64,000 bases of DNA from Grammothele lineata (lineage: Eukaryota; Basidiomycota; Agaricomycetes; Polyporales; Polyporaceae). Under the pieces are notes generated by a model. That model saw nothing but the letters and a program-made list of their open reading frames with translations, did no database searches and had not been told where the DNA came from. The position numbers and the translations under genes are program-made. Shown here in pieces: positions 18,191 to 51,147 of this stretch; the first letter of the stretch is position 1; each line of letters opens with the position of its first letter. The stretch lies in the NCBI GenBank assembly GCA_002150815.3, contig NDFF03000035.1, forward strand, positions 62,001 to 126,000, given 5' to 3'.

Positions 18191-18555
18191 TACGGAATAG
18201 TCTTGAAGCAAGTCTTTGTGTATGTGATGATCCTAGCGTGGCGACGGAGAGAAGCAAGAGGTCTAGAGAGAGGAGCGGCAGCGAGCAGGGCGTCACACTC
18301 ACGGACGACGGCCAGGCGCCGACAGAGCCATGTGTTACGTAATGAGAACCCAAGAAAGGAAAGCGGTTTATAGTGCGTATTACACCGGATCCGTTGTAGC
18401 CTCGAACCTCGACCACTGGCATCGTCTCGCTTGGTCGGAACACTTTTTGTTCTTCTTGGGAGGCCGTTATCTCTCTCCTCTTCTACGGCGCGCATCCTTG
18501 GATACCTCACTCTAGCGCCCTAACCAAAAGCACTCCCGCCAAACCCCGCTTTGAC
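18191..18555. promoter_or_regulatory. Divergent promoter region syf2 / kinase
   Basis: 365 bp between two divergent start codons, with pyrimidine-rich tracts near 18,440-18,550 before the kinase ATG. No clear TATA box. Confidence 0.45.
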
Positions 18556-21203
18556 ATGGACGGGCTGGACTGCGAATACGCCGCGTGGGCGGTCGCTTCG
18601 CAATACTTCGGCGCATCACCACCTCCCTCCCCAGGTCCAAAGCGCAATGGGATGAAACGCGTATCTCTTTCCCAGTCTCTGTCGGACGACTTCTGTCTTG
18701 GCCCAAGTTCACGCGGAATCCATCTTCCTCAGCCACCGGCGGAGAACGTTTTGCAACCTTCTGTGTCGGCTCCTCTCATGGCTCCTGATGACGCTTTGGC
18801 AACTAGATCTGTACCATCACATTCTAAGGCAACAATTCTGCCTTCTCTGGAGTCAAACAATGTATCTCTTCCGTTGAAAGCATCTCCTCCTGCTTCTATG
18901 ATGTCTTTCCCTCAAGCATCTACAGGCTTGGCGGTAATTCTACCTTCAGAACCTATCTCTTCAACATGGAGCACCTGCGATATCTTTGGCGGTAACGCTG
19001 ATAGTCCCGTAGGGCGGTTCCAACTCTCTTCACTACGCTTCCTGGGGACACTCGGTCGCGGCGCGTACGGCAAAGTCATGCTCGCTCAGGCCTCTGCAAC
19101 CAGGTCCGGAGACCACCTCTCCCAAGTAGCCGTCAAGGTCCTCGGGAAGAAGGATATGTCCAAAGATGACGCTCGTGAGGTCAAATCGGAGATTCGAATC
19201 TTACGGATGCTCTCCGGGGGTGCAGCGCGCGGAGATGGGTCGGCCTTCATCCAGAGGATGTTCGATGCGTTTCAGACGAAATCACACGTCTTCATCGTTT
19301 TGGTGAGTAGTGCAAACGCTTCTGTGTTGCGAAACGCGGGAGATCTAAGCGTCGTGTATATCACAGGATCGTCACTCGATGTCCCTCGCGCATCCTCTGA
19401 TCAAACATCGGCTCCGCCTTCTCCCCGAACCCGACTCTCCCGTGCCTTTACCCAATTCTGTTTCGCTTCCTACGTCCTTCCCGTCTTCGGCGTCGATATT
19501 CCTTCCTCACGAAGAAGCCCTAGCCACCCTCCAGCTCCTAGCTGCTGAGCTTCTTCTCGGACTGCTCTTTCTTCACTCGCTCGGGATCGTACACCAAGAC
19601 CTCAAACCCGCCAACGTCCTCGTCTCTTTCGAAGGACACGTCGTCATCACCGACTTCGGGTCTGCGCGGTGCATGCCCGTGTCCTCGCACACCTGGTCCG
19701 CATGCGGCACTGAGCTCGACGAGAGCCCCGACTTCTCTAGCAACGCCCCGTGGACGAAGCGGAGAGCCGAGGGGACGATCTTCGGCTCGATAGTCTTGCA
19801 CGCCGACGACCAGGTGTCGTACACGAAATGGTACGCGGCCCCGGAGCTGCTCCATGCGCCCGCGGGGCTGGAGGGAAGGAACGTGCTCATCTATGACGAG
19901 CGCGTGGATTTCTACAGCTTGGGCGTTATGTTGCGCGAGCTAGCATATGGAGAGAAACGCCGAAACGGTGACTGGGAGTGCCTCAGTGACGGCGGATGCC
20001 GAGATGACGAGATTGACTTCAACTCGGCGTTCGCCCATTTCACGGACGAGGTGCGTTCGGTATGAACCTATGCACTACGTGCCTGACCTTACGTCGACGG
20101 TCTAGCTGGTCTCTCGCAATCCCGAGGAACGGTTGTGCGGCCTCCAAACCAAAACACACCCATTCTTCGAGCCCTTGCAAGACTCGTGGGAGGACGTCGC
20201 GGCCCTCAAGTTTCCGCCTTTCTCTCGCGGACTCATCCCAGAAATTGACGCCGACGTCGGACTCGATCTGCGCGCATATAGTGGTGAAGATAGCGAAGAC
20301 AGTTTGGTTGGCTCTGCTTCTAATAGCTGTCCCGCTGAGCTTGCCGACATTCCTTATGACGGTGACCGCTCCTCTCCTGGAACTTGTTCTGCTAAGTCCT
20401 CCTCAACCGAACCAGTGGTCGTTCTACCTGTCGCAGATGTCTACATGACACCCTCGGGTGTCGGCGCAGAAGAGGACACTCACTTGCACTCCCCGCTTCC
20501 TATATACCCCGAATGGTCTCTGTCGCACTTTCCCACCATTCCAAGCCTTTACTCTTCCGAGTATGCGTCACCCTCGCCCCCGCAGCATTCCCCTCTCATC
20601 AGCGTTCTTCATTATCCTGGCCACCCAAGTACTACATCTAACGTCGACTTCAAACCCCTTCTGTCCCCGCCGGCGCCCCCCACCCTCTCACCACCTTCGC
20701 TGCGGCGCCGATGCGTCGTATACGACCTTCGGAGCGCGTTTCACGTCACCGATGTCCCCAATCGTGGTCGCGGACTCGGTTCCGCGTCCCTCGGCCCGCG
20801 GGCTGCGTCCGCAGCGCCCCGAGCGCCCTCCGCCTCCGCCTCTCGCCGCCGCTCGATCCCCCGCCGCTCGAGCCACAACGTCCCGGTCAGGAGGCCGGGG
20901 CCCCGCCACGGCCGCCTCTCATCGACACCGCACCTCCCCGCCCAGACACTGTCGCCCCCGCTCTTATCGCCGACGGCGGCGACGTCGTCTGCAGGGTGGG
21001 GCTTCGAGCAGGAGATCACGATCGCGCTGCTCGCGACGATGGGCCAGACGAAGGGCGCTGCGCGGGTGAAGAACACTAATTGCTTCGCTCGGAGTCCGAC
21101 GGCTGCGGCGGCGGTGGCGACGGTTCACTGTGCCGGAATGTCAAGTGCGAGGCCGCGGCCCCGTAAGCGGTCGAAGGTGCAGGCTATCGTCTCGCGCATC
21201 TAG
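18556..21203 (+). CDS. Serine/threonine protein kinase, 3' end altered by a transposon insertion
   Basis: Exons 18556-19302, 19367-20050 and 20106-21203; 842 residues. A ~150-residue low-complexity N-terminus precedes a kinase domain: glycine loop LGRGAYGKV (about 165-173), VAVK lysine 194, HQDLKPANV at 325-332 (HRD is HQD here), DFG at 345-347, and APE in KWYAAPELL. A long insert separates the two lobes (about 260-300). The segment VSRNPEERLCGLQTKTHPFF matches the end of AGC-like kinase domains. The basic, proline-rich tail has no domain I recognise. The stop codon TAG (21201-21203) is the first three bases of the inserted element. Downstream of the right target duplication the same frame continues for six codons to TGA at 28219-28221, so the pre-insertion protein was probably six residues longer. 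Confidence 0.85.
21192..21200 (+). repeat. Left target-site duplication
   Basis: TCGCGCATC, identical to 28192-28200. It lies in frame in the last codons of the kinase gene. Confidence 0.93.
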
Positions 21204-21272
21204 GTTCGGATCAAGCCGCCTGCTCCGAACGAATTTTCGCGCTCCGCGCGAGCCTTCGGAGAAGGGGCTTGT
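21201..21272 (+). repeat. Left terminal inverted repeat
   Basis: Two-block TIR: outer block 21201-21217 and inner block 21252-21272 (GCCTTCGGAGAAGGGGCTTG). Between them lies a hairpin-capable pair TTCGGA (21205-21210) and TCCGAA (21224-21229). The spacer is about 15 nt longer than in the right TIR. Confidence 0.88.
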
Positions 21273-21758
21273 ACCAAGGTACCCGGATTCAGCATGATGT
21301 TGGAAGTCTTAGTTCTTCGCGATAAAGACATTGACAGCCTTCCAATTTCACAGAGCTTGTCTTGATATGCTACATGATACGAAGCTCTATCTATATTGAC
21401 CTGGGATTGAACCCTAGGAGGATACTCAGGGTCGGAATATGGGCTTCGGGGGCCAATAGGGGCTTCGTGTTTCCCAACGGTCTTGAATATTTGACACATC
21501 GTATCATAGCAAAATAGTTGCACGAACATTGAATATACTATTTCTTCTACCTTCCTGTGAAGCCGCTGGTCGATCCGACTTCTACACCGCGAGAACGAGC
21601 ATCCGCTCTGGGATGCGGGGTCGTGGTGAATAGGAAGCGCCGAAGACGCGTCCTGTGTAACGCGCGACGCGACGCGTTTCAGGCGCTTAGCCGTGAGCTT
21701 CTCTGCACGGCTTCACCTCGTGCTCGGGTCACACTTCTTTCATCGCCCCGTGTTGACA

Positions 21759-24646
21759 ATGCCCGCGCGTTCTTCGCTTTCCACGCCGTCCACGGTACCG
21801 CGTAGGAGCCAACGAGTTTCTTCCCCTCTCCCCCAAACCTCTCGCTCAGGTTCAACTCTTCGCCCGACCTCTCCTAACTTCCGCCCCTGTACCCCGAGTC
21901 CTGTCGGCCATACCCCACAATCATCCTCGGGTGTGCCATCCGCGTTCCCATCCACCTCTCGTGCGCCCACCAGCTCTTCCTCTGAAGCCGCCCATGCCCC
22001 GCAAGATGCTCATCCTCCCCGCCCTTGCACACCCTCTACCCAGGGTCCTGCTCCATCTCGGCTTCCTCACAAGCAGCCCCAGTCTACCGGTCTGCAAGGC
22101 ACGAGACCACTTTCCCGCAACCTCGATCCGGCCGTCCTCGGCTCGAAACTCCAGGAGAAGCTGAAACTCTCTTTCACCCCGGACCAGTGGCAGCTCGAGT
22201 TGCTCTCTCGTCTCTTGCGGGGCTTCGATAGCATCGTCTGTGCTGGGACCGGTTATGGGAAGAGTCTCCTCTTCGAGGGGCTTGCAGTGCTAGGTGGAAA
22301 GAATAAGGCTGTCATGGTAATAAGCCCACTGAAGGCCCTTGAGCGAGACCAGGTGAGTGATGGGCGTGTACTCACGGTGCTGTGCGGAGGCTAAAGGCGT
22401 TCTGTGTAGATGTTGCAGGCTACCGCCAAGGGGATTAAGGCGATTGCGATCAACGAGGACAACTCACACGACTCGACGGTATGGGAGACAGCTCGCAAGT
22501 CTGCGCAGCTCATTTACCTGTCGCCCGAGATGGCCCTGTCAGACGGGTTCTCCAAGCTGTGGAAGGACTCGTCCTTTCGAAAGCGTCTCGTGGCTGTGGC
22601 AGTTGACGAAGCACACTGCGTTGAAGAGTGGGGTGATGACGATTTTCGTCCCCTCTACCGCTCGCTAAGCGTGCTCCGCCACTATACGGGCCAGGATATC
22701 CCCTTCCTCGCTTGTACCGCAACGTGCTCGACATCGACATTCGAGCAATTGTGGAGTAGCCTGGGGTACGGATACCGTCCATTCTGGGGTTTAGATGTAG
22801 GATGCGACCGTCCCAATCTCTTCTATGAGATTCGAGCTCTCCAACAGCCGAAAAAGCCCATCCTCGACATTCTCAATATCCTCCCGCGCACCCTTGAGGC
22901 TACCACTGCCCGTGATGCTATCCCGAAGACCCTCATCTATTTCGATTCCGAGCAGGCTTGCGGCGAGATGACAGATACCCTCCGAAAATGTTTACCCCCT
23001 CACCTTCGCGACACTGTCTACGCATTTTCGTCCTCGCTTTCGGCGCGCGCGAAGCAGCAAGTTTGGGACAAGTTCGCCTCCGGCGAGATTCGAATTATCT
23101 GTGCCACGGACGCCGCCGGGATGGGATGCAATGTTGGTGACATCCGCTACGTTTTCATCATCAACTGCCCAAAAGCTCTCTCGGTAGTCGCACAACGTTG
23201 GGGTCGTGCAGGACGCGATCGGAAGACGAACGCTACCTGTATCATGCTGGTGCCAGCATGGGCTTTCCGCCCGACAGTTCCAAGCATGCCAGTGGCTCAT
23301 GCGACTCTCCAGCGGCTCAAGGGCAGACAAAAGGCCCTGATTGAACCGAAGCGGCACACAGAACAGCGTGCTAAACTGCCTTCGGAATTGGAAGAGTTCA
23401 TCAATGCGGCGTCTCTCAATACCTCTACGGAGCGCAAGTCAGTCGGTATGTGGAATATAAGTGCTTTGGCACCCTGTTGACCCATTGTAACCCTCTAGCC
23501 GGATGCCTACATTCGTACCTGCGGCAGACGTATCGCCCGGAGACCTCGCTCACAACATACACGGATGTGGCAAACAACACCCGCACAGCCACCGGGACGC
23601 GCACCTCACGGTCGGCGTTCTCACTATCCTGGACGTCATTGGACCTCAACCGTCACCCTCCGAGTACACGATGCTGCTATCACTGTAACCCCAACCACGT
23701 CCATCGTGTTTTGCCTGCCTCGCCAACAGATCCACGGCTCACAGCATTCGCAAGTGATTTCCTTGTTCCTGTTGCAGTACCCCATCCCCGCCGTCCCTCA
23801 GTTGGTTCCGCATCGGCCTTATCACACGACTCAGCAACGACGTCCTTTGAGCCCCTCGAGGGTGATCACACGGTCAATTCAGACGAGCGTGAACGCCTCC
23901 GCCAGGAGCTTGTCGCCTGGAGGGCACGCCGGCGCGATCCAAACGCTGATTACTTGTTTACATCGGCTGCAGTTGACTTTCCCGATAAGCAAGTCAAGCA
24001 GATCGTGTCACAGGCGCACGTCTTCCTGTCCAGGGCTGAGGTCGTAGCGACTGACGTCAAGAAGATTGTTCAGTGGGACTCGGCAACGACAAACGATCTC
24101 GAGGAAGTGGCGGGTCTCATTGCGATATGGCGCATTGGCGCAGCTTTGACGGCTACGCCTAAATCACAGCGCCGTCCCCGCAAGAAGGCGCGTCGACCGA
24201 GCACATCTAGCTCTCAGTCCACCAGTTCATCACCTTCAATGCGTCCACTCAAGTTCGTGAACACGAACCCCTCAAATGGCCCCTCAAGTTCTCCTCCGTC
24301 GATGCCCGATGACGCGACTCCTCGGCGCAACACGACCGTGCCCCCACTGAGCACTCTTCGGTGGCAGACACCCTTAGGCGCTTCGCATTTTTCGCCAGCG
24401 TTGAACACTAGTACAACACCCACTCCTGCTGCACTGCTACCTATGCCAATGCCTCCCTTCGTACAGCCAGCACCCGGCGTGGGCCAGCCCTCGCCTTCTT
24501 ATGCACAGGGCCCTTGGCCCTACCCCATTCCTTCGCCGTTTTTTGGTTTTCCCGCACCTGTCTGGGTAGCCGCGACACCACCTGGGTCGTCACCTTACCC
24601 GACCGCATCTGGCTCTGCAACGTACATGCCACGTCAGCCTCATTGA
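21759..24646 (+). CDS. RecQ-like superfamily 2 DNA helicase of the transposon
   Basis: Exons 21759-22352, 22410-23445 and 23499-24646; introns 57 and 53 nt; 925 residues. After a ~130-residue Ser/Pro-rich leader come the helicase motifs: Q-type FTPDQWQLELL (about 139-149), motif I AGTGYGKS (162-169), motif II DEAH (264-267), TAT (301-303), motif V ATDAAGMGCNVGDIRYV and motif VI QRWGRAGRD (460-468). A cysteine set follows (GCLHSYLRQTY near 545 and CCYHC near 602), placed like the RecQ zinc-binding domain. The C-terminus is Pro/Ser-rich. Inside an element, a helicase could unwind ends or support DNA synthesis during transposition (inference). Its stop lies 39 bp from the stop of the convergent DUF6589 gene. 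Confidence 0.88.
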
Positions 24647-24685
24647 GGTACGTTACAGTTGATATCGTACATACCATCTATTTGT

Positions 24686-27614
24686 TCACAAATGCTCGCT
24701 TGCAGCTGTATACTCACCGCCGCCACCAAGAGCTCCTGATGCTGCTGCCGCCATATCTGGCGTGGTAGTGCTGTCCCCATGGAGGTCTTCATAACTGTCC
24801 TTCTCCAGAACATTAACTCGGCAGTTATCGAAAGCCGTATTGCTGTTGAGGCGAGAATCGTGAGAGGAGTCCTGCTCGAGGGTGACGGGGTACCCAATCG
24901 CTGGGTCGAACGTTGTCGTTCGTAAATATTCGGCGAACTTCCCATTCTGCCAGATCTCGGCACCAGTCACCATGACGTCCACAATGGCTGAGCGGGCCTC
25001 AGAGGTGTTCTTCTTCTTGCTCACTGGCTCCGGTACGAAATGTTGCCCCTTGCCAAAGATGTGTGACTGACGGTTATTCATTTCCTCAACTAGGACACGC
25101 ATGTCCTCCTGAAATGCTAGCTCCTTCGAGCGCCGCCGACGATCATCATCTCCAAAGAAGTTGGCCATCAGGTGGGCAGTGTCTCGGAAGGCTTCGACGC
25201 ACGCTGAGCCTTTCTTCATGATGTACTCGATAGTGATCCCGCTACCGGAGGCAATAAATACTCGCTGTGAAGATGTGAGTATTGTACTACTGCATTGTTT
25301 GTAATTGCTCACATACTTTGACCCAGAAATTGCACTGTTCGAGATACAGATCTGATGCGATCCACCGCCGGCGAAGTCCCCATCGATTGACAAACCATGT
25401 GCGCTCGAGCGCGTTTCGCAGATCGTCGGTGAGTTCATACTTCCATCGGAGAAGCACCTCTACACACTCGCGTGCATAATTGTGCTGACTTGCGCCTCGA
25501 AAAGACAGAGCCCAGAACTTGAAGATGCGCAGTACTACACCAGCATCTGCATTGCCAACTGCGTCTTCGAAGACCAGGAAGAAGAGAGCGTCTCGCATAA
25601 AGTAGATATCATGCGCGAGCCAATCGTCCTTCTCAGCCTGAGCCCGTTCGGCCTGCGGAGTCGTTGTGAAACGTTCTTGGATGGTGCACGCAATCTTGCG
25701 AACGTCTTCGGCGGCAGGCTTCCACTTCTTCAAAGAGTCCCAAGACGTGTATCCTTGAAGGACCCTGCAGTGAGTGTACATGAGACGATTTGGTGCAGCC
25801 GTGAAGTAATGCTGACTTACATAACACACCGTAGCAGTCGTGCAATCAAGGAATGACGTATCAAGGCCTTCGCAGCAGCGTAGTTCGGCTTGTTTGCATC
25901 CCATGTCCGCCGGAGAAGACCTTTATGGGCAGCAAGAGAGCTAGGGTCCATCACTGCGTTGCCAAAGTGCGTTCGCATGATCATGTGGCTGGCGTTCAGA
26001 GCAAAGTGCCATAACGCTGGGATCTCAGCACAATACTCAGCCCGTTCCATGGCATTGATGTCGTCCTTGCGCTCCCGGCGTGCCGTACGGAAGTTGTTGA
26101 CGGTGAGCCAGTCTCCTTGAATGATGCGAACCTTGGACGACCAGTCCTCTTCTGATAGTGTCGACTTCTTCTGCAGTTCTTCAAGCACCTGCAGCAGACC
26201 CTTTTTCGAACCCTCGTTTACATTGAGCACACCGAACGGGCGGGTGTCCGAGACCTCAGGCGCCAAGGGTCGGTCACGTGGGATGTCGTTGATGATTGCA
26301 TCTAGCATCTCAGCTCGCCCTGTCCAGTTGGAACTCCCAGGTGTGTAGCGGATAAGTAACTCTGCAATCAAGCACTCAAACGCGCGCTTCATGTGCTCGC
26401 CATCCTCAGGAGTTGGACGGATGTCTTTGAATGTTGCATCCTTCCGCTTTCCACGATTTTCGAGCAATGACGACAGATTCTCAACCTTCGCGGCATCGCC
26501 TTCAGATATAGCAATGACGGCGACATTTGTAGCATGAATCATCGAGTGACGGTTCGTGATTCTCTCCTGAAATTTGCGAAGGTAGAGATTGATGTTGTCG
26601 AAGATGATGTAGAACAGTGTCGAGCCCGTGATGAGGTCAATGGCTAGGGAGACTGCGTCCGATGAGATACACTCCTTCAGCCTCTCGATGGTGTGGACGG
26701 AAACTGATAGGCCAATGTTGCTGAGAAGGGTGAGGACTCGATCACTCGTACCAGATATTTTGAAGAAAAGTCCTAGTGGCACAGCAAGGACATTTGTCGC
26801 ACGATTGCGCACAAACCCGCATAGGCATATGCACACCATTATTGCCTATTCTCTGCGTAAGCCATTGCTATTTTGTCACCCTGGCGCTGAGTGCTATGCT
26901 GAGACTTACGTAGACCGGATTCCGTGAGAACCCTGGAAAGTGTTGCCTCCAGTTCGTACCCGCCTCGCTCTCAATCTCGTCCTCAACTTCACTATCCTCC
27001 CCACTGTCGTCCTCTTTTGCAGTCTCCTCGTGCCCGTTGTCCTGGCCTGGAGTGGTTGTCGCAGGAGGTTCCCCTGATCTCGCTTTCCTCCGGCGATACT
27101 TGTTCGGTGAAGCCGTGAAGGCCCGTAGCACTGCATACATGAAAGGCGCCAGAACTTGAATCTTCTCCAGAATCACTGACGGTTGCAAGAGCCGCTTCAT
27201 GTCCGCAATCGTGAGTGTCTTAACCTTGATTTGAAAGGCCGGCTCCTGGATGATTCGATCACTCTCCTTCAGGGCAATTTCCTCGGCACAGGGCTGCACA
27301 ACATGATCATGGAGATGACTGCGAGCTTGAGGCCATCTATCATGCCATAGACGATACAAGGTACGTGGATAGAAGACTCCCTCTTCGTCCTTGGCCTTCG
27401 AGTTATAGCCTAAGAAAATTGACGCTCTTCTCTTGACAGAATCAATGTTGGAAGAGAAGATGAATACGAGCAGATGGTGGATAGGCACAGCCAAGTAGAT
27501 GACAAGCGAGATGATCATGTGAAGTTTCGCGTCCAGGGTTTGCGGAATGAGGTCAGGTGGTAGAGCCTCCTCCCAGAGACCGGAGGAGTACATCAGGCCG
27601 GTTTCGACAGTCAT
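24686..27614 (-). CDS. DUF6589 protein, candidate transposase
   Basis: Exons 27614-26910, 26845-25821, 25764-25317 and 25264-24686; introns 64, 56 and 52 nt; 918 residues. Hallmarks of the agaricomycete DUF6589 family are clear: SVKRRASIFLGYN, LWHDRWPQARSHLHDHVVQPC, FYIIFDNINLYLRK then NRHSMIHATNVAVIAI, FGVLNVNEGSKKGLLQVLE, IIQGDWLTVNNFR, AEIPALWHFALNASHMIMRTH, AAHKGLLRRTWDANKPNYAA. Asp318 (FDNIN), Asp480 (GDWLT) and downstream acidic or His residues (Glu509, His515) are spaced as in an RNase H-fold DDE nuclease, but I cannot prove this by eye. A Glu/Asp-rich linker near residues 200-225 divides the N-terminal part. The final exon could splice again at a GGTGAGT near 24,715. Confidence 0.82.
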
Positions 27615-28134
27615 GGTGAGCAGCAGGCCTCCCTCCACTCAAAAATTGTTCTCTACATTCACATTTGCCTCCGCGCGCAGGTACCGATCATGTTGAGCGG
27701 ATGAAACTCATCCGCCAACGAGCTCGATCGCAAGCCCGACGTCTGCGACGTGCGGTAGTGTCACACATGTCACACCCTATCAGTGGTGGTGACCTCGGTC
27801 ACTTCCACCACTACAAACGAGATTTCGGTTATGCCGCACCAAGACGTTCCACATTTATGTTCTCGGGTGATTTTGTAACATATTCCCTAGCGTACACAAC
27901 AGTTTGATGTGAGGATGCTCTGTTATGCATGAGATTTTGGATAATTTCCTCCAGTGCCCGTGACAGATGGTGCGGATGTCATGGAATTACTCGGAGGGGC
28001 GGAAGAAATCAATAAAAATGTGTAACACATTCCGAAGCATGTCTATAATGCTACTCTAAATGCCGAAGGGAAGGGGGCTAGTACTCATACGAGGGCGGCC
28101 AGCACGAGATCATGCCTATTCTAGTGACTTTGTC
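27615..28134. other. Non-coding right flank of the transposon
   Basis: Between the DUF6589 start and the right TIR. It holds a near-perfect inverted repeat at about 27782-27812 (AGTGGTGGTGACC / GGTCACTTCCACCACT) and no gene. It probably contains the DUF6589 promoter and possibly protein-binding sites needed at the element end. Confidence 0.6.
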
Positions 28135-28191
28135 ACAAGCCCCTTCTGCGAAGGCGCGCAAGCGCCGGAGCAAGGGCTTGCTCCGAACCTA
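28135..28191 (-). repeat. Right terminal inverted repeat
   Basis: Reverse complement of the left TIR in two blocks (28175-28191 and 28135-28155). It contains the perfect palindrome GGAGCAAGGGCTTGCTCC at about 28168-28185. Confidence 0.88.
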
Positions 28192-28200
28192 TCGCGCATC
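28192..28200 (+). repeat. Right target-site duplication
   Basis: TCGCGCATC, identical to 21192-21200. The bases that follow (28201-28221) continue the kinase reading frame to a TGA. Confidence 0.93.
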
Positions 28201-31921: not shown

Positions 31922-34051
31922 ATGTCCATCCCTCAGATAGCGTACTATGTTCTCCCCGTGGCCGTCGTCCTCATTCTCGCATACCACAAGAGCAGAAGGC
32001 GCAACACACTACCGCTTCCCCCCGGACCTCCTCGACTTCCGCTCCTGGGCAATGCGCTTCAGATTCCCAAGCACGACGTATACGTGTCATTTCGTGATCT
32101 CAGCGTCACTTATGGTGAAGTCACGTTCTGTGTTACTCCCCGTTGTTTCTAGAGCCTGACACGAACCCTTCGTATTAAGGCGATGTCGTGCACTTGGACG
32201 TGATCGGGCAGCCCATGATCATCCTGGGCTCCCAGGAGGCCGCCGTCGATCTGCTGGGGAAGCGCTCTGCGAACTACTCTGACCGGGTGCCCTCTCCTTT
32301 GGTTGACTTGTACGTTAAGCTTTGTCTCGCTTTTCCCCGGCGTCGAGTCGGCGCTGAGAATACCTACGGGGCTCTGCCAACAGCGCGGAATTCGATTGGG
32401 CCCTTTCGGCGCAACGATACGGTCCAAAATGGCGGCGGCACCGACGGGCGTTCCACCAGTATTTCAACCAGACGGCGATCCAGGCGTATCGGCCGGCACA
32501 GATGCTCGAGGCACGCCGCTTCGTACGGCGGCTTATGGAGACCCCGCACGATTTCCTAGATCACATCCGACAGTGCGTGTCTCTCCTCTGTCCGGGTAGC
32601 TCAGAAATGTCCTCCCATTCACGCATCCTCTGCTCCGCGATAGCCACTTCGGCGCTACTGTCATGCGCGTAGCATACGGGATCGAGGTCGACGAAGAACC
32701 TGAGCGCGGGTATCTCGAGATCGCGGAGGAGATGATGGAACGATTTTCGTTCGTCTTCACGCCCGGAAAGTATCTCGTGGAGACATTCCCTGCCCTTCGC
32801 CTCCTGCCGTCGTGGATGCCTGGTGCGGAATTCAAGCGCGACTGCGCGGAGCTCAAGCAATCATCGGACAAGCTCCTAAACGTCCCTTGGGATGCGACTA
32901 TGGAGGCCATAGTGCGTCCCATTCTTTCTATTATGATGTAGGGGCGTGCTGACAACTGGCCTGCTGGAATAGCGCAATGGCATTGGGCGCCCTTCCCTGG
33001 TGGCAGATTTAGCAGAACGCGCGCGCACAATGGATGCTGTCAGTGCGGCCGAAGAAGAGAACGTTATCAAGGAAACTGCCGCCGCCGCTTACAGTGCCGG
33101 TGCCGACACGGTGCGTCTTCTGTCTGTCGCGGCTTCCTGCTACGAAGCACCGCATCCCGACGGATCACGTATTGACTACACCGGCGTCCAGACACACTCA
33201 ACCCTGCAAACATTCTTGGTCGCCATGATGCTCTTTCCAGACGTGCAGCGCAAGGCGCAGGCGGAGCTCGCTGCCGTCGTAGGCCCGCACCGCCTACCCG
33301 AGTACGCTGACGAGCCCGCCCTCCCGTACATACGCGCACTCGTCCGAGAGCTCCTCCGCTGGCGCTCAGTCGTGCCCCTGGGCATTCCGCACCGTGCCCT
33401 GGAAGAGGACGAGTATAGGGGCTGGCGGATTCCCCGGGGTGCGATTGTGATGTCCAATATCTGGTGAGAATCTGCTGCTGGCCCCTGCAAATGGTTGGTA
33501 CCTTGGATACTGATGGCGACGGCGCAACGCGTGTAGGGCGATCTCGCGTGACCCAGCGGTATTTGCGGACCCGGAGACGTTCATGCCCGAGCGGTTCCTC
33601 AAGAACGGGCAACTCAACCTTGACCGGGGAGATCCCACCTCTATTGCTTTTGGCTATGGGCGCAGGTGAGATTAGACAGGCTACCTCCATTCTTCAAGAT
33701 ATCCCTCATATTGAACTTATGTTATACTGTGCACACAGGATCTGCCCTGGCAAGCACTTCGCCGAGTCGTCCCTCTTCATGGTTGTCGCGAGCGTCCTTC
33801 ACACGCTCAGCGTCGGTGCGCCCATCGGCACAAATGGCAAGCCTGTCCTCCCATCGGGGAAGATGGTTACCGGTCTGCTCTCGTGCGTCGCGCGGACCCT
33901 TAATAAGTTCGTGAATATGTCATGCCATTACTGATCTTCAATGACTAGGCATCCGGAACCGTTCGACTGCGTGATCAAGTCGCGGTCCTCCGAGGCGGAG
34001 ATGCTAATCAAGACGGCTAGTAACGAGCGTAATGGGGTGGGACCCGGATAA
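31922..34051 (+). CDS. Cytochrome P450, copy 1
   Basis: Nine exons: 31922-32114, 32180-32309, 32384-32572, 32644-32911, 32973-33110, 33192-33463, 33537-33665, 33739-33882, 33949-34051; 521 residues. An N-terminal membrane anchor is followed by the hinge LPLPPGPPRLPLLGN. The I-helix has AGADT (302-306), the K-helix ExxR is ELLR (359-362), PERF is FMPERFL, and the heme loop is FGYGRRICPGKH with Cys442 as the thiolate ligand. It is an ER monooxygenase needing an NADPH-P450 reductase; the substrate is unknown. It resembles the O-methylsterigmatocystin-oxidoreductase-like (CYP64-type) group expanded in wood-decay fungi. First of five paralogues, and not paired with a small-gene module. Confidence 0.93.
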
Positions 34052-36087
34052 TACTTGTGCATTTGTCTGGCTCCTACCATGCACACTACTCACTCACAGG
34101 TGTGTTCTATAAAGCTATCGAACTGATGCCACGTACTTGTGGTCAAACTTTGCACCGCTCCCGGCGAACTGCACTAAAGCGCTGTCCTGATCACCACCCC
34201 TCCTGCAGTCATTGTACATCCACGCGTTCATTATAATAGCCTACTTTTGTTTGTGACCAGTCGGGGCGGCTTCCGTTCAAGAAGCAACTTGAAATTATTC
34301 AACCTGAGATTCCGGGGCACAGTTCAAATTGGACTTTGCAGGTGTCCTATTCAACATGGGCACAAGCCGGTCAAACATATGTTGTCGTTCAGGTGACCTC
34401 GCTCGATTTTTGGGAAGCCGAGAAAGAGCAAGAAAGCTAGCAAAGGTGACCTACTGCCGCTGGTGGTCCGCCGCAGACGAGTCCGAAGAGACCGAAGAGA
34501 CCTACCAGTCGAAGCGCCCACAGTTGCGTTGTTTGGTTCGTGTTTTGGACAAATAAGATCACGTGTTAACCTAACTCTCTCGGCACCGCGAGTTTCTTGC
34601 GACTTGTGGCCGCTAGCGGCCGAGAGGCTCTCAGCCTGTTCCTGCTCTCCATCTTGCCTTCCGTAGGCCGTCGCATACCGGCTCTCATTCACCATTAGAA
34701 CAATCAGTACCATCGTGCCCGGTTCTCAAGTCCGCGATATTTGCCACGTTGGTGAAATCGTATCCAATGATTGCGAGCGAACCTTCTGTCACCTGTACGC
34801 ACTAGTAGTGGAAAGGTACGGGCCGCCCCATCCTTGGACACCACCCTCATTCATAATGTCGCCCTTTAGCGCCTACATCACACCTATCTACATGGGCAAC
34901 ACACTTATCGGACCGGTCAAATGCTATGGTTTCATTCTCTAGGAGGCCGGATCAACCATATTTCCTTTGGTTTTGTAGTCCCGCCGGTACACGTGCACTC
35001 GAAACGAAGCCCATGCTTTGACAGAAGCCCGCGCATGTCCTGTGTTTCAACCTAGCAATCACTTTGAGCATGGGTCTATTACTCGAGGAGATTTCTCGGA
35101 GGAGGACAGACGATGGCAGGAGGTGGGTTTGACTGAACCTCAGAGTCGTAAATGACGCCTGCTAAAATGTCGCGCTAGAAGCGAACTAGCTGAGTACGAG
35201 CCCATAGCATACCTACGTGCACGCAGACATACTGAAACCCGCATATCAACGCCGTGTACGATTTGTTTAAGAACAACGTTCCTTACTAACTCCGCAAGCA
35301 CGAGTCAACGCCTCGGCTTCACCTTGCATACTCCTTTTCGCTCACTCAGCTGACCATCGGATGCATCTGTCTCCGTTCTTTTCACACCGCCCTCAAAAGT
35401 CCTCCGTGCTTCCATGGGACCCTTCAGGAAGAAGAGTCGGGCTCACATGGTATCTTATCCTCCGGCTCACCTGTACATTCAGTGGCGCTCCCCACGCAAT
35501 GTCATTCCTATACTTCTTGTTCTCACATATCTTCCTCAAGCTCGGTATTAAACCTTGCAGTCATTCCTGCTACGGCGTCATATACCGGATACTCCAGCGA
35601 ATCAAGAAAGTTGAGCAGAATGGCCGGAGAGCTAAACACTAAACCTCGGACCGTGGACCGTGGACGTTGCCAATTTGGTGGGTCAGAATGCCCGCCCGCT
35701 CTCTTGACGGTGCTGACCATGCTCCGCGGCAGAGCATTTATTCAGACCTCTCATCGCCTTGTGCTATCGACCCGGCTCCTGAAGTGCGGCTCGCCGACAT
35801 GGAAAATTGTCAGAAGCCAGCCGATGAGCCCCTCGTGAGCTCATTTTAGTGCGATCATCTGCTAGGCCAGCCGGGCCCCTCTGTCCTCAGGATGCCGTAT
35901 CGGTATGTCACACGGAGTACAGCAATCTATATTCAAGTTGATACCGCATGTCACTATAGGATAACCGCCGTCCGGTTTGGCAGTTCGGCTCGCCCGCGCG
36001 TCTTCCCCGTCTACGCCAGAACGTATATAAAGAACGACGAGGTTCATTCAGCCCTCACTCCGCCAGCCCAACTCTTTTATCGATATC
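34052..36087. other. Spacer between P450 copies 1 and 2
   Basis: 2 kb with no supported gene. A TATATAAA box sits at 36024-36031, 56 bp before the ATG of copy 2. I saw no copy of the 68-residue gene module here. Confidence 0.5.
36024..36031 (+). promoter_or_regulatory. TATA box of P450 copy 2
   Basis: TATATAAA, 56 bp upstream of the start codon; position and sequence are matched by the other array members. Confidence 0.6.
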
Positions 36088-38231
36088 ATGCTGACCTCTC
36101 GGGCAGTGGTCTATATCCTCGCTGTGGTCGCCCTCCTGACTTACGCACACCGGAGACGGAAACAGCGCAGCACGTTACCTCTTCCCCCCGGTCCTCCTCG
36201 ACTTCCGCTTATAGGCAATGCACTACAAATCCCCAAGCAAGACGTACACGAGATGTTCCGCAATCTAGGGTCCACCTACGGTAAAGTCTCCTTAATATCG
36301 TCGCTCTCTTTGCGAGCTGACTCCTGCCCTCATATTAAGGCGATGTCGTGCATTTGGACGTGCTCGGGCAACCTATGATCATCTTGGGCTCCCAAGAGGC
36401 CGCCGTGGACCTGCTAGAGAAGCGTTCCGCAAACTACTCTGACCGGGTGCCCTCGCCTCTCGTCGATATGTACGTTCGCACATATCATGTTCATCGGCGC
36501 GTTGTTCATAAATCCGACGACCGCCTGCCGTCATGGTTTCAAATAGCTCAGAATTTGAATGGGCCCTGACAGTGCAGCGGTACGGGGCGAAATGGCGGCG
36601 GCATAGGCGGGCGTTCCACCAGTATTTCAACCAGACGGCTATCCAGGCATACCGGCCAGCGCAGGTGCTCGAAACACACCGGTTCGTGCGGCGCCTCATG
36701 GAGACGCCCCAAGATTTCCTCCATCATATCCGGCAGTACGTGTCTGTCCTTGATCCCCGACCCCAATGTCCCAAGACACGGGTCAGTACCTCGTTCACTC
36801 ACTGACCCTACTTTATTTATGTCAGCTACTTCGGTGCTGCTGTGATGCGTGTGGCGTACGGAATCGAGGTCGACGAGGGACCCGACCGAGGGTACCTAGC
36901 AATTGCGGAAGAGCTGATGACCAGATTTTCGTTCGTCTTCACGCCGGGCAAGTATCTCGTAGATATTTTCCCTATCCTCCGCTTCTTGCCCTCGTGGATG
37001 CCCGGTGCGGGCTTCAAGCGTGATTGCACAGACCTCAAACAGGCAGCAGATAAACTTCTCAGTGTTCCTTGGGATGCAACGATGGAAGCCATAGTAAGTC
37101 CCACCTCTAGGATCGAAACGTACGTAGGAAATGATCGGCACGCTAACGACCGACGTGCCGGAACAGCGGAATGGCGTCGCGCGCCCTTCCCTGGCGTCAG
37201 ACCTGGTACAGCGTGTACACACAATGGACGCTGCAAGCGCGGCGGAGGAAGAAGACGTAATCAAGAATACCGCCGCCGTCGCTTACGCTGGCGGAGCTGA
37301 CACGGTACGTGCTCTTCCCAGCAAACTCCTCTCTGACAGTGGAGTCGCTGATGCGCCACTATGTCCTCTAGACGCTCTCAACCGTGCAAACTTTCTTTGT
37401 TGCCATGACGCGCTTCCCAGACGTGCAGCGCAAGGCGCAAGCGGAACTCGCGGCCGTCGTCGGCCCCCACCGCCTACCGGAATACGCGGACGAGCCTACG
37501 CTGCCGTACGTGCGCGCGCTCGTTCGGGAGCTCCTTCGCTGGCGCTCGGTCGTGCCCCTTGCTGTGCCGCACCGTGTGCTCGAAGAGGACGAGTACAGAG
37601 GCTGGCGAATTCCCAAAGGAGCGATCGTGATACCCAATATTTGGTGAGTGCGCGCTGCGGGTTACTCCGAATGATCGGCAGTTCAGACACTGACAGCGGA
37701 GGTGAAATGCAATAGGGCTATCTCACGCGACCCTGCGGTGTTTGCGGATCCGGAGACGTTTATGCCCGAACGATTCCTCAAGGATGGCCAACTCAACGTG
37801 GATGGAGGAGATCCTACCTCTATCGCATTTGGTTACGGACGCAGGTGAGGGGCATTATCGCTCGATGAATTACTTCATGTCCTGAGGACTTCGCTTATAT
37901 TTAATTTGCGCATAGGATTTGCCCTGGAAAACACTTCGCCGAATCCTCCCTATTCATGATTGTTGCATGTGTCCTTCATACGCTCAGCATCGGTGCGCCC
38001 ATCGACCCAGACGGCAAGCCCGTACTCCCGTCGGGAAAGATGGTGACCGGCCTTCTCGCGTAAGTCTTGCAAACTATGTGTCAGGTGAGAGAGTTGTTAT
38101 CATGGAACTGACTTCCTTTGAACAGATATCCAGAACCGTTTGAGTGCGTGATCAAGTCGCGGTCTCCTGAAGCGGAGGAAATGATCAAGATGAGCTGCAA
38201 CGAATATCAAAGTAGGGCTGAAGACGTGTAG
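36088..38231 (+). CDS. Cytochrome P450, copy 2
   Basis: Nine exons: 36088-36280, 36340-36469, 36547-36735, 36826-37093, 37167-37304, 37372-37643, 37716-37844, 37916-38059, 38126-38231; 522 residues. Exons 1-8 have exactly the lengths of copy 1. Motifs: hinge LPLPPGPPRLPLIGN, AGGADT in the I-helix, ELLRWRS in the K-helix, FMPERFL, and heme loop FGYGRRICPGKHF. All expected catalytic residues are present, so it looks functional. It converges with the 68-residue gene at 38949-39155, the same tail-to-tail pairing seen for copies 4 and 5. Confidence 0.93.
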
Positions 38232-38948
38232 CACTGGTTCTTCCCAATCATCTGATAGGCTAGCTATTCGAATTGGTTCCTATGGAGTAGTTAATGGTAT
38301 CTAACGAATATCGGTTATGTTTTGCAAGCTTTGCTATGCCTGATCATATTGAAGTATTTGACGAATCCTCGTTAACTTCAGTCGACAACGTCTTTCCTCG
38401 TGGACGCTCCTGTATATACGCACGTACCACGCATTGGACGCCTACAAGTCGGCGACACGAATCAGCCGCAGCTTGCCTCGTGTCACACTGGCTTTTTACA
38501 CAGATCGGTGCCGTGTGATGACGCTTATTATACATACTGTATGTCTAGGATGTGTCCGGGTACAAATACAACGCAGATACAAAACAGTAACATGGTCCAT
38601 AATAGTCCGACGAGTACAAGAAATGCAGTGACCTCTCGAGGCCAGTTCTCCATATCCAACAGGATCTCTTGGAGAGGGGTGGGGAGTATTGATGCCAACT
38701 CGCGAGGTGCAAGGTTTACGGCGGCGTGACGCAAGAGCGGTTGAGCGATGCGTATCGCTTGTCGCCACACAGATGCGTAGAGATTGAGCGCAGCCGCGGC
38801 GAGTGTGACGAACACGAAGAGAGATGGGACGAGGTCGACCATCGACAGTGAGCCGGGGCGCGATCCGCAGACCATCGGCCGCCAGGCTTCGTGGTAGAGA
38901 GATAGCGCTGCTCGAGGACTGGCCTGCGAGCACGATGCGCGAATGCGT
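38232..38948. other. 3' space between P450 copy 2 and the small gene
   Basis: Includes the downstream half of repeat unit S1. On the minus strand a frame (about 38875-38528) with two hydrophobic segments (FVFVTLAAAALNLYA, FLVLVGLLWTMLLFCICVVF) is open here but broken by a stop and a frameshift in the copy at 43.6-43.9 kb, so I do not call it a gene. Confidence 0.4.
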
Positions 38949-39650
38949 TCACAGTCCGAGGTATTTCTTCAGCCCGCCCTTCGTCGTCTTCCGCTGCCCG
39001 GCCCGTCCGTTCGACGGGCATAACGTCTGCCGCGCGTCTTCATAAAGGTGGTAGGCATCGCGGGGCGATTGGGTGGATCCGAAGAGAGCGAAGGTGTTGG
39101 GCGATGCGGGGCTAGCCGCGAAGAGGGAAAAGGTGGAGGTAGAGGAGTAAGACATCGATGAAGTGATTTCGTGGATAAGGAAGACTGCGGTGGTATTGGT
39201 GGTAGTGGTAGTAAATGCGAGTGTGAGAGACTAGAAGTCGATGACGGGGCTCGAGAAGATGCAGACTAAGTTGGCTGGCGATGAGGAATCGAGCTCCAGT
39301 AGTTGCAGCTTAAATACATGACCACAGACGTCCGATTGCTTCTCGTAGTCACCATCCTGCAATCCGCATGTTCGTGAAGAGGCTATCGACCGGTCCAGGC
39401 GACATGCGCCCACTGGAACTTGCCGTAGCGAGAAGGTGTGGGTGTCCCAGTAAATAAGTGTACAATGCACCGCCCACAGAGACCGCTGTCGCTAGGTTAC
39501 GAGCCCGAAGCGAGGTGTATGAGAGGCGAGAGAGCCAATGGAGGGGGGAAGGGCGTACAATGAGGTGAAGGAAGAGCGTGGGGTGGAAGCGCCCGAGACG
39601 CGTTATTTGTCTCGCGAAGGACAAACAAGACCACGTGGTCGAGAACTGGC
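38520..39650 (-). repeat. Repeat unit S1 (small-gene module)
   Basis: About 1.1 kb, homologous to 42840-43930 and 46975-48040. It includes a GACCACGTGGTC palindrome at its 5' end, a shared leader, the 68-residue frame and a conserved 3' part. Boundaries are approximate. Confidence 0.8.
38949..39155 (-). CDS. Conserved 68-residue protein, copy 1
   Basis: Single-exon frame beginning MSYSSTSTFSLFAASP and ending in the basic tail KTTKGGLKKYLGL. It has no signal peptide, membrane span or family I recognise. The second copy (43330-43536) differs mostly at third codon positions, with a few amino-acid changes (T/A, A/V, G/S, L/F), which argues that the frame is translated and constrained. A TATTTAAG box lies about 160 bp upstream. 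It converges with P450 copy 2. Function unknown. Confidence 0.65.
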   Translation of the reverse strand: MSYSSTSTFSLFAASPASPNTFALFGSTQSPRDAYHLYEDARQTLCPSNGRAGQRKTTKGGLKKYLGL

Positions 39651-40538
39651 GCCGCCCATGAATCGGGAGTGTCGCGGCCTTTCAACTTAGAGTCCAACTT
39701 AACGTTCAACGTCAAGCCTTCGACCGAGTTCGCCTCGTCTCGTCTACGCCTCAGGTAAGTCTCTCAGAAGTAATGTATCCTGTGGAATGGCAGTAACGCG
39801 CACTGCTGTCCTTATAGCTAGTCCCGACTCCCAAAGTCAATCCGGCAATGATCACGATACTACATCGTCAACGGGTTTATAGCAACTGCAGCGACGTCGG
39901 ACGACACCATTGCGTAACCGTTGGCTTGAGGTATCAGATTGGCACCATATCTGTTTACCGTCTCATCCACGGCGGTTTGCTACCCAACGTTACTATATCT
40001 GAATACTCGAACTTTAACCGATTGTACCTCGCAACAGTCAACCTCGGCTTCGTAACTGCCGTACTCGATTCAATCGTCCGGGCCCGGGAACAACACCCGC
40101 GCTTGTCCCTCAGACGAAGAAGTAGAGTCGCCCTGGCTTGCAGCTCGGCTTCTTCGCCCCTCGCATCCCTTGATGCACCTTTCTAGTTAAATGCCGCGAT
40201 CTAACCCTCCTCTTCGGAAAACCGATCGACCTTTTGCGACCGGCCATGCAATTCTTCCGGCATATCTACCCTCAGGGAGGCTCGTGTTGTGGAGCTCACA
40301 GACGTCGCGTGTCGCGACTAGGAAATGGACTGAAAGCTCTCGGCATTTTCACCGGGCTATCTGTTGATTGGCCCTTCTTCATGCCGGGACATCAGGTACG
40401 TATGCTGTTCTCTTCGCGTTACTTGCTGTACCGTTGACAGGGTCTGAACTTACTTTTGCGTCTTCCTCTCAGGGTAGAGGTCTATAAAAGATCATACGAA
40501 CCCAACCCGGCACACCCCAGCCACGGACATCGTTCATC
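39156..40538. other. Divergent space between the small gene and P450 copy 3
   Basis: Left half is the promoter part of repeat S1 (to about 39650), including GACCACGTGGTC with an adjacent inverted GTTTGTC/GACAAA pair. The rest has no gene except the P450 promoter (TATAAAA at 40483-40489). Confidence 0.5.
40483..40489 (+). promoter_or_regulatory. TATA box of P450 copy 3
   Basis: TATAAAA, 49 bp upstream of the start codon. Confidence 0.6.
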
Positions 40539-42647
40539 ATGCCCACCACTCACACAGCTCTTTGGGCCTTCGTTGCAGTAACGATCTTCATTCTTTCTCG
40601 CTGGAGACGCAAATCTCGTAATGAGTTATCCCTTCCCCCGGCTCCTCCCCGGCTCCCGATCCTGGGCAATGCACTCGAAATCCCCCAACGCGATATGCAT
40701 GTGACGTTCCGCGAGCTGAGCGTCAAGTATGGTGAGGCTGCCTTAACACCACTGCTCCTCGAGGCTGATGTATACTTTCTGCCTAGGCGATGTAATGTAC
40801 TTAGATGTGTTCGGGCAGCCCATGATCATCTTGGGCTCTCACGTAGCCGCTGTCGACCTCCTCGAGAAACGTTCCACAAACTATTCGGACAGGCAGCCCT
40901 CGCCCCTCGTTCCTAGGTACGTACTATGCGTATGCCATGCTCTCCCCCCTTCAAATGCTCACTGACCCTGTGTCTGATCCAGCGCGGACTTTTATTGGGC
41001 CCTCCCGGCACAGCGGTATGGTCCCAAATGGCGGCGCCATCGGCGGGCGTTCCACCAGTATTTCAATGCGACCGCCATTAAGACGTACCGGCCTGCCCAG
41101 GTGCTTGAGACGCACCGATTCGTGCTGCGCCTCATGGAGGCGCCCCATGACTTCCTCCACCATATCCGGCAGTGCGTATCTCGACCCTGCTATCCGAAGT
41201 CCCCCAAAACGCTCGCTTACCCTAGAACCCTGTTCGTCCGCCCCGCCCCGTAGCTACTTCGGTTCCTCTGTGATGCGGATTTCTCACGGGATCGAAGTCG
41301 ACGAGGAGCCGGAGTGCGACTACCTAGCGATTGCGGAAGAGATGATGGCGGTGTTCTCGTCCGTCTTCACGCCGGGAAAGTATCTCGTCGAAACCTTCCC
41401 CGTCCTCCGCTTCCTCCCAGCGTGGATGCCCGGTGCCAGCTTCAAGCGAGACTGTGCAGAACTCAAACGTACGTCAGAAAGGCTCCTCTCTATCCCTTGG
41501 GATGCTACTATGGAAGCCATAGTGAGTCATAAGTCGTCTCAGGCTTGGCGAGGTGAGGCATGCTAATGATGGAGTAATGTGTACAGCGCAATGGCAAGGA
41601 GCGTCCTTCGATGGCGGCGGACCTAGTGGAACGCGCGAGTACGATGGATCCCACTGCGGCGGCAGAGGAGGAAAAACTAGTGAGAAGCACCGCCGCGAAT
41701 GCTTACGCCGGCGGCGCCGACACGGTGCGCATTTGCGTGGTCTACATGGCACGATTCTAGCCCTTACTTACTCGCTGCTCTTTTCTCCGCTGCCAGACAC
41801 TTTCCACCGTGCAGACATTCTTCGTCGCCATGACGCTCTTCCCGGACGTACAGCGCAAAGCACAAGAGGAGCTTGCCGCCGTTGTCGGCCCCAACCGCCT
41901 GCCCGATTACACGGATGAGCCTGCCCTGCCATACGTGCGCGCGCTCATTCGAGAGCTTCTCCGCTGGCGCTCGGTCGTGCCCCTTGCTATACCGCACCGC
42001 GCGCTCGAAGAAGACGAATATAGGGGCTGGCGGATCCCTAAGGGTGCGGTCGTGATCTCCAACATTTGGTGAGCCTCGTTCCTGAAGGATTTATAACCAG
42101 CCGTTCATGCTAACGATGGCTGGTCCGTAGGGCGATTTCCCGCGACCCAGCCATGTATCCCGACCCCGAGGAATTTAAGCCCGAGAGATTCCTTAAGGAC
42201 GGGCAACTCAACCTGGACGCGGGCGACCCCGCCTTAATCGCTTTTGGCTATGGGCGCAGGTGGGCTTGTTGATCGGCCGTCCTGAATGCCTTTATCTTGC
42301 ACTGACACGATTAGTACCGACTCGCGTTTGCAATAACAGGGTCTGCCCCGGAAGACATTATGCTCAGGCTTCGCTCTTCATGATTGTCTCGAGCGTCCTG
42401 CACACGCTCAGCATCTGTGCGCCCCTTGGAGCAGACGGGAAGCCTATTCTCCCGTCCGGGAAGATGGACACCGGCCTTCTTTCGTAAGTTACCGAATCCT
42501 GTCCGTTCACGTCAGTGTTGTACCTGATTGCGAAATGACAGTTATCCGGAGCCCTTTGAGTGTGTTATCGAGTCGCGGTCACCTGAGGCGGAAGCGTTGA
42601 TTAGGGAGAGTTGTGCTGAGCTCAATGGGGTGCTGGTCATGCAGTAA
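40539..42647 (+). CDS. Cytochrome P450, copy 3
   Basis: Nine exons: 40539-40731, 40787-40916, 40983-41171, 41254-41521, 41587-41724, 41797-42068, 42131-42259, 42340-42483, 42542-42647; 522 residues, with exon lengths identical to copy 2. Motifs: hinge LPPAPPRLPILGN, AGGADT, ELLRWRS, PERF, and heme loop FGYGRRVCPGRHYAQ, where copies 1, 2, 4 and 5 have GKHFAE. The wider replacements (e.g. ISHGIEV for VAYGIEV, NATAIKTY for NQTAIQAY) make it one of the more divergent members. It stands alone between modules, with no convergent small gene. Confidence 0.93.
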
Positions 42648-43329
42648 CTGGTTTCTTAGGTTCCAGAAGCATACGCCTTGGCGCAAGAGGGGTAAGAATG
42701 TCTCAATATTTGTCTTGAAGAAATATATATGTGCCTTCTATCTCATGCTATAACATCTCTGCGGCGCGTGGGAATTGCCAAAGTCTACATCCCCTAGATG
42801 GCTGGCCACGACATTTACTTACATGTCGCGACTCGGACGTTTGAGTGCCACACGTGGCATTATTTGTTCCACAAGCGAGACAAACAACGCGTCTCGGGCG
42901 CTTCCCCCACGCCCTCCTCCTGCACCTCATTGTACACCTCTGCCCCTTTTCATTGGCTCTCTCGCCTCTCGTACGCTTCGCGCCGAGCTTGTAACCTAGC
43001 GACAGCGGCCTCTGTGGGCGGTGCATTGTACACTTATTTGCTGGGGCCCCCACACTTTCTCGGAATGGCAAGTTCTGGTGGGCGCATGTCGCCTGGACTG
43101 GTCGACAGCCTCTTCACGAACACGCGGATTGCAGGATGGTGACTACGAGAAGCAATCGGACGTCTGAGGGCATGTACTTAAGCTCCGACCTCTACGACTG
43201 GACTCTCCATCACCAGCCGACTTGTTCTGCATCCTCTCCAGCCTCGACATTGACTTGCAGCTGCTCGCACTCGCATCTACTATCACCAGTGTCGTTGCCA
43301 TCCTCATCATCCTCCAGAACACTCCCGCG
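42648..43329. other. 3' end of P450 copy 3 and promoter part of repeat S2
   Basis: From about 42840 this is the upstream part of repeat S2 with a CACACGTGGC site and the GACAAACAACGCGTCTCGG stretch shared by all three copies. No gene. Confidence 0.5.
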
Positions 43330-43930
43330 ATGTCTTATTCCTCCACCTCTACCTTCTCCCTCTTCGCGGCCAGTCCCGCATCGCCCAACGCCTTCGCCCT
43401 CTTCGGTTCCACCCAGTCTCCCCGCGACGTCTACCACCTCTATGAAGACGCGCGGCAGACGCTGTGCCCGTCGAACGGACGGGCCGGGCAGCGGAAGACG
43501 ACGAAGAGCGGACTGAAGAAGTACTTCGGGCTGTGAACGCATTCGCGCATCGTGCTCGCAGGCCAGTCCTCGAGCAGCCCCACTACCACCACGCCTCACG
43601 GCCGACGGTCTGCGGATCGCGCCTGGGCTCACTATCGATGGTCGACCTCGTCCCATCGCCCTTCGCACTCGTCACAGTCATCGCGGCTGCGCCCAGTCTC
43701 TACGCGTTCGTGTGGCGACAAGCCATATGAGTCGCTCGCTCGCTCGCGCGTCATCCCGCCGTAAACCTCGCGCCTCGCGAGTCGGGCACCAACATTCCCC
43801 ACTATTCTCCAAGAGATCCAGATGGATATGGAGAGCCGTCCTCTCGAGACGCAACTGGACTTTCGCACCTGTATGGGACAACTATGGACCTTTTTGCTAG
43901 ATGTATTCTCTGTACTTGTATCTCGTCACA
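42840..43930 (+). repeat. Repeat unit S2 (small-gene module)
   Basis: Second copy of the 1.1 kb module, in direct orientation to S3 and inverted relative to S1. The downstream hydrophobic frame seen in S1 is broken here. Boundaries are approximate. Confidence 0.8.
43330..43536 (+). CDS. Conserved 68-residue protein, copy 2
   Basis: Same length as copy 1, beginning MSYSSTSTFSLFAASP and ending KTTKSGLKKYFGL. Roughly 16 of about 20 codon differences from copy 1 are silent by my hand count, so the frame appears constrained. It converges with P450 copy 4. An upstream TACTTAAG could serve as its core promoter. Function unknown. Confidence 0.65.
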   Translation: MSYSSTSTFSLFAASPASPNAFALFGSTQSPRDVYHLYEDARQTLCPSNGRAGQRKTTKSGLKKYFGL

Positions 43931-44108
43931 CCTAGACGATCGTTATCATTACTGCATTTCACTACAAAGCTGTGACAAATTCAAGGTCTAGGATTCGTTT
44001 CAATACGTCAGCAAGTTGCTCTCGACGCATACCGGCTGGGCGGCAGCGGTCTCGGCAAGATGTCTGGGTGCAGGGCTAGCAGAAGTAACACCAGGAACAA
44101 GTCAAGAG
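43537..44108. other. 3' space between small gene copy 2 and P450 copy 4
   Basis: Downstream part of repeat S2 and the 3' flank of P450 copy 4. No gene. Confidence 0.5.
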
Positions 44109-48040: not shown

Positions 48041-48139
48041 TCATTCACGCTTTCTGTACGTCAAACAAGTCAATGTTGGCACGCGCCCGTTCACGGAGAA
48101 CGGTCTTGGCAAGAAAACCGAGGGCAAGGCTGAACGAAA
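47609..48139. other. 3' space between small-gene copy 3 and P450 copy 5
   Basis: Downstream part of repeat S3, decayed relative to S1, then the 3' flank of P450 copy 5. No gene. Confidence 0.5.
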
Positions 48140-51076: not shown

Positions 51077-51147
51077 TGCATTAAGGGGGAATCGAACCCC
51101 CGGCGGGTCGATGGCAACGACCCAGGTTACCACTACCCCATTAATGC
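51077..51147 (-). tRNA. tRNA-Gly (anticodon GCC)
   Basis: On the minus strand the acceptor GCATTAA pairs perfectly with TTAATGC, the anticodon loop TTGCCAT gives GCC, and the T arm is GGGGG/CCCCC around TTCGATT. The discriminator is A. 71 nt, no intron. It marks the edge of the P450 array. Confidence 0.95.

Follow-up and report, generated by a model that had tools for sequence, protein, structure and literature searches.

What kind of mobile element pairs a helicase with a protein of the DUF6589 family (PF20231), which Pfam annotates solely as of unknown function and for which one search gave at least 178 homologues, and what does that protein do there? The question is raised by a locus in a 64,000-nucleotide stretch of the Grammothele lineata genome (contig NDFF03000035.1), the whole of which is here termed the window. 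Positions 21201-28191 of it (6,991 bp) are a real DNA transposon with terminal inverted repeats (TIRs), enclosing one gene for a DUF6589 protein and one for a helicase. The best explanation, held with high confidence, is that this transposon, marked by its inverted ends and by a target duplication of 9 bp, belongs most likely to the AcademH lineage; the DUF6589 protein is its predicted DDE transposase, and the helicase, of RecQ type, likely assists.

Ends, target duplication and insertion site

By end and duplication analysis the element runs from TAG to CTA, with no strand assigned to it as a whole, and is flanked by two perfect copies of the 9-bp sequence TCGCGCATC (21192-21200 and 28192-28200, plus strand). 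Its left TIR (21201-21272, plus strand) comprises an outer block TAGGTTCGGATCAAGCC and an inner block GCCTTCGGAGAAGGGGCTTGT, and its right TIR (28135-28191, minus strand) ends in TCCGAACCTA; gaps included, they are 72 and 57 bp long. The termini have identical bases at 15 of the outermost 16 positions and likewise have the inner block (GCCTTCG.AGAAGGGGCTTGT) in common. The initial annotation had already described the TIRs and the perfect target duplication of 9 bp, and both are borne out. When 2,898 TAG/CTA end pairs around both genes were scanned for duplications of 8 bp (exact) or of 9 or 10 bp (one mismatch permitted), 21201/28191 was the sole pair to have one. Across the genome (41.8 Mb, 252 contigs) TAGGTTCGGA by itself is not enriched: it has 37 sites, whereas the reversed control sequence has 75. 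Thus, the short end sequence alone is no proof.

The element lies in what appears to be a host protein kinase gene (window 18400-21203), with a Pkinase domain (E 4.7e-22) upstream of it and a last exon, as judged by reading frame, at 20106-21203 on the plus strand that it apparently interrupts. The in-frame stop of the interrupted gene is TAG, i.e., the first three bases of the element, and the frame ends six codons early: with the flanks joined and one duplication kept, ...VQAIVSRI becomes ...VQAIVSRI-VKGLAF-stop. Two kinase homologues were found among 7,991 candidates scored, namely P0122, ending in ...SILRKLKGLVSQ, and P0123 from Ganoderma sinense, ending in ...AIFRKLKAMVRVP. Both seem to run beyond the insertion point to about equal length, their tails having been aligned by eye (the BLAST alignments end at residues 88 and 316 of 371). 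The element hence appears to cut the last six codons off the kinase gene. Empty sites, which the initial annotation had named as support if seen in other strains, have their counterpart only in these two homologues.

A predicted transposase and its helicase partner

Inside the element are two convergent spliced genes, as had been read from the sequence initially, and neither coding frame has an internal stop; the exon borders of both are predictions by reading the sequence. The helicase gene (21759-24646, plus strand) has three exons (21759-22352, 22410-23445 and 23499-24646), introns of the GT...AG kind and a product of 925 aa. The protein displays a Walker A motif GTGYGKS at residue 163, the DEAHC motif (DEAHCVEEWG) at 264 and QRWGRAGR at 460, and its exons match Pfam Helicase_C (E 5.6e-15) and DEAD (E 2.9e-6). 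Its closest sequence match in PDB is human WRN (E 1.5e-35), and the NCBIfam RecQ family profile matches the main exon with E 1.8e-39, yet under the curated cut-off of that profile. To judge by these motifs and matches, the helicase is of the RecQ type.

The DUF6589 gene (24686-27614, minus strand) has four exons (27614-26910, 26845-25830 or 25821, 25764-25317 and 25264-24686), and its product counts 915 or 918 aa depending on the choice of one donor site; Pfam DUF6589 matches the two main exons with E 7.2e-41 and 7.4e-42. Structure models were made of two homologues, P0001 (predicted local distance difference test, pLDDT, 83.1; predicted template modelling score, pTM, 0.80) and P0121, which is 23% identical to it (pLDDT 68.8, pTM 0.71). 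In fold searches with these models, the best 18 matches of one search and the best 25 of the other were all DDE transposases, RAG or integrase, with hAT (Hermes) and the P element among the closest solved folds. The DUF6589 protein is thus predicted to be the DDE transposase of the element, with an RNase H-like core, in keeping with its initial designation as a probable transposase.

Three acidic residues would form the catalytic center. The first predicted Asp, D318 (codon 26597-26599, minus strand; motif FDNIN), corresponds to D330 of P0001, which lies in strand 324-335; the second, D480 (26111-26113, minus strand; motif GDWLT), equals D492, directly after strand 487-490; and the predicted third acid, E716 (719) (25338-25340, minus strand; motif DLYLEQ..N), equals E731 in helix 726-742. 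Across 62 aligned proteins, D330 is conserved in 60, D492 in 56 and E731 in 59, and 9 of the 11 misses are gaps. At the outset, the protein had been forecast to adopt an RNase H-like fold and to have Asp318 and Asp480 among its acidic residues: both residues are as stated and take the expected places in the predicted fold, so two of the three likely catalytic residues had been named correctly, the third being likely E716.

As an observation on the family itself, the Pfam DUF6589 model starts past the two strands that bear the first predicted catalytic Asp (P0001 residues 324-381; in the window, around and after D318), and the family boundary therefore cuts the predicted fold. Relatives of DUF6589 were found neither in viral contigs nor in 14 control genomes, and Foldseek against viral models gave no match at E <= 0.001. 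A search of long DUF6589 proteins for helicase fusions or animal relatives returned P0121 alone, which carries DUF6589 only, and no fusion. The MULE transposase profile had no match up to E 1 in three DUF6589 proteins, a threshold that distant members could escape.

Recurrence of the gene pair and of the ends

The genome holds six DUF6589 loci (18 exon matches), and five of them, including that of the window, sit in TAG...CTA elements of 6.4-7.7 kb bounded by perfect 9-bp duplications. In genome coordinates the window element is C34:83201-90191 (duplication TCGCGCATC), and the others are C34:497144-504862 (hereafter C34b; CGCCCTCCG), C41:232442-238838 (CTTCGGCTC), C20:65298-71838 (GCGGGCGAG) and C52:47052-53423 (ATCCCCGCA). 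The sixth locus (C239), near a contig end, has no TAG...CTA bounds with a perfect 9-bp duplication. Among 11,653 TAG/CTA pairs at the six loci, perfect 9-bp duplications occur five times, one per locus in five, and those of 7, 8, 10 or 11 bp not at all; for the other 63 trinucleotides at 9 bp, the mean is 0.32 of six loci and the maximum two. As TAG was chosen from the window copy, four of the five constitute an independent test. Exact 10-bp inverted seeds located the ends of none of the five other loci; those of four were located by inner TIR blocks, followed by the scan for TAG/CTA and duplications. Similarity found by blastn between the elements is confined to short patches (41-168 bp, 68-80%), and the window element has no part in them, so that the elements are old, separate families built on one plan.

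The helicase is a constant partner in this plan, a statement supported by all five complete elements of the genome. Each of the other four has a Pfam Helicase_C or DEAD match above the cut-off, and all eight matches of a helicase search of the genome (E <= 0.001, 15 candidates scored) lie inside the five elements; host RecQ genes are absent from these matches, so the list is incomplete for helicases. Further copies pairing the two genes convergently within duplication-flanked TIRs had been named initially as support. In this genome the pairing and the 9-bp duplication are seen in all five elements, the window's included; the genes converge in four of them and diverge in C34b.

Copies of the window family itself comprise the one full element in the window and five short end matches (on C139, C89, C11, C150 and C35). 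The first of these is a mini-element of 56 bp (C139:121975-122030) between perfect 9-bp duplications CATGGGGCC, made up of 36 bp like the left end (35 positions identical) and a further piece that finishes with 18 bp identical to the right end. Exact 10-base ends spaced 20-50 bases apart occur at this single site in the genome and at none in the control. The mini-element thus adds another insertion bounded by these ends. Having no gene, it must have moved in trans, which suggests that the ends alone are enough for mobilization. At C89:117115 (L045) and C11:323261 (L047) a right end is joined to a left end over about 60 bp, without duplications as judged by eye; both are probably decayed mini-elements. 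On C150 and C35 no partner end with a duplication was seen within the roughly 5 kb read on that side.

Elsewhere in the window, the region 32000-50000 has numerous repeats related to one another and lying in both orientations (the 25 pairs listed are 71-85% alike) and an exon at 37372-37644 matching cytochrome P450 (E 2.8e-22), which together probably mark a P450 cluster. Two tRNA genes are predicted, tRNA-Ile (aat) at 2349-2422 on the plus strand and tRNA-Gly (gcc) at 51076-51147 on the minus strand.

Mechanism, alternatives and affinities

The most likely mode of movement is cut-and-paste by the DUF6589 protein with the aid of the helicase. In the predicted chemistry, the transposase would bind both ends, of which about 36 bp on the left and 18 bp on the right would be enough, going by the 56-bp mini-element. 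Its cuts would fall at TAG/CTA, and it would attach the 3' ends to the target strands with an offset of nine bases, leaving a 9-bp duplication after repair; the duplications imply this nine-base stagger. As a guess at its step, the helicase, whose gene lies on the element's other strand, may separate the DNA strands either at the ends or at the junction formed in strand transfer and so help cleavage, gap filling and resolution to finish.

Weighing against this explanation are the ends of the other elements, whose outer 16 bases agree between left and right at just 8 (C34b), 7 (C41), 12 (C20) and 9 (C52) positions, and whose inner inverted blocks, present in C34b, C41 and C20, were not detected in C52 by the same scan. 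Copying mechanisms, replicative or peel-and-paste, had been raised in the initial annotation; they are possible, though required by nothing observed here. That a helicase accompanies every complete element (5/5), and that ISCth4, of the copy-out IS256 family, is among the fold matches of the DUF6589 models, would suit a replicative element using the helicase for copy-out, paste-in or peel-and-paste transposition. This is unlikely: Pfam reveals no HUH, Y1 or Helitron domain in the window exons or in three DUF6589 proteins, 9-bp duplications with TIRs are ordinary for cut-and-paste, and the single full copy of the window family argues against efficient replication. A broader proposal, that DUF6589 elements are DDE transposons whose movement depends on a helicase that they encode themselves, with RecQ peeling or displacing a strand at the ends in an at least partly replicative process, and that the many unexplained mushroom DUF6589 genes are its transposases or their tamed descendants, strikes us as rather unlikely too.

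It is quite unlikely that the element represents a lineage of its own rather than Academ, i.e., a DDE superfamily with a DUF6589 transposase, whose RecQ helicase would be an independent acquisition like that of KolobokH. In its favor, DUF6589 shows no relation to named transposase profiles (Pfam returned nothing but DUF6589 over the cut-off for three proteins, and NCBIfam no match and no transposase name for two), has no sequence match in PDB up to E 1 and is named in no paper of the literature searched. However, the helicase, the 9-bp duplication, the low copy number and (likely) the basidiomycete host fit AcademH as described in the excerpts of PMC10045372 and PMC10799480. Finally, the mini-element, which was moved without genes of its own, could prompt the view that DUF6589 and helicase are mere cargo of a transposase encoded elsewhere. 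This is very improbable, given the predicted DDE core of the DUF6589 homologues and the recurrence of both genes in all five elements, four of which may hold other small genes besides.

On the preferred explanation of a DUF6589 transposase with a helicase partner, the novelty lies in connecting PF20231 with a predicted DDE transposase, as supported by recurrence in one genome and on two models. The family thereby gains a concrete and testable function as the predicted transposase of helicase-carrying transposons; three residues are named for mutation, and an open two-gene element and a natural minimal substrate of 56 bp can be used in an assay. If the AcademH assignment is true, many unexplained mushroom proteins would get a job, and if the predicted function is borne out in further genomes, repeat annotation would take many 'hypothetical proteins' out of the tally of host genes in mushrooms.

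As for known systems, the DUF6589 models resemble hAT (Hermes) and the P element in an RNase H core that is interrupted by a helical insertion ahead of the third acid. Those elements, unlike the present one, have no helicase, make 8-bp duplications and share no detectable sequence similarity with DUF6589; hAT was rejected on finding no perfect 8-bp duplication at TAG/CTA ends and 9 bp at five of six loci. Helitrons use an HUH/Y1 transposase and make no target duplication, and were rejected on the 9-bp duplication and the absence of a Helitron profile from the Pfam matches. Kolobok duplicates TTAA, and KolobokH was rejected on that target, the five 9-bp duplications differing from one another and none being TTAA. 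KolobokH is alike in being a fungal DDD/E transposon with a RecQ helicase and unlike in layout: in KolobokH the helicase is placed downstream of the transposase domain, whereas the present element encodes it in a gene of its own that faces the other way; a rhodophyte Kolobok does have a helicase on the other strand (PMC9587614, excerpt).

From AcademH, no difference was found among the described features compared. AcademH, of the Academ superfamily, reportedly goes back to Kojima (2020, Mob DNA 11:15), in a paper whose title is said to place it in animals. TIRs are a feature of AcademH, and the window element has them. In the accessible portions of the sources, duplications measure 9 or 10 bp in AcademH but 3 or 4 bp in AcademX, a difference tied to helicase versus nuclease (PMC10045372); AcademH occurs at low copy number in Basidiomycota, Ascomycota and Mucoromycota (PMC10799480); and Academ is counted among the DDD/E superfamilies (PMC9587614). 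The present elements parallel this in a RecQ-type helicase in the window copy and related helicase open reading frames in the four others, in perfect 9-bp duplications at all five complete elements and the mini-element, in low copy number in a basidiomycete host, and in a DDD/E transposase as predicted from the models of two DUF6589 homologues. By these shared described features the element likely belongs to the AcademH lineage, and its initial billing as undescribed most likely gives way to this match with published, low-copy basidiomycete AcademH. A further parallel may be struck with the mushroom Marasmius oreades, for which widespread putative nonautonomous Academ elements are described (PMC8290104, excerpt): those are known by description, whereas the 56-bp mini-element is tied to its full copy by sequence.
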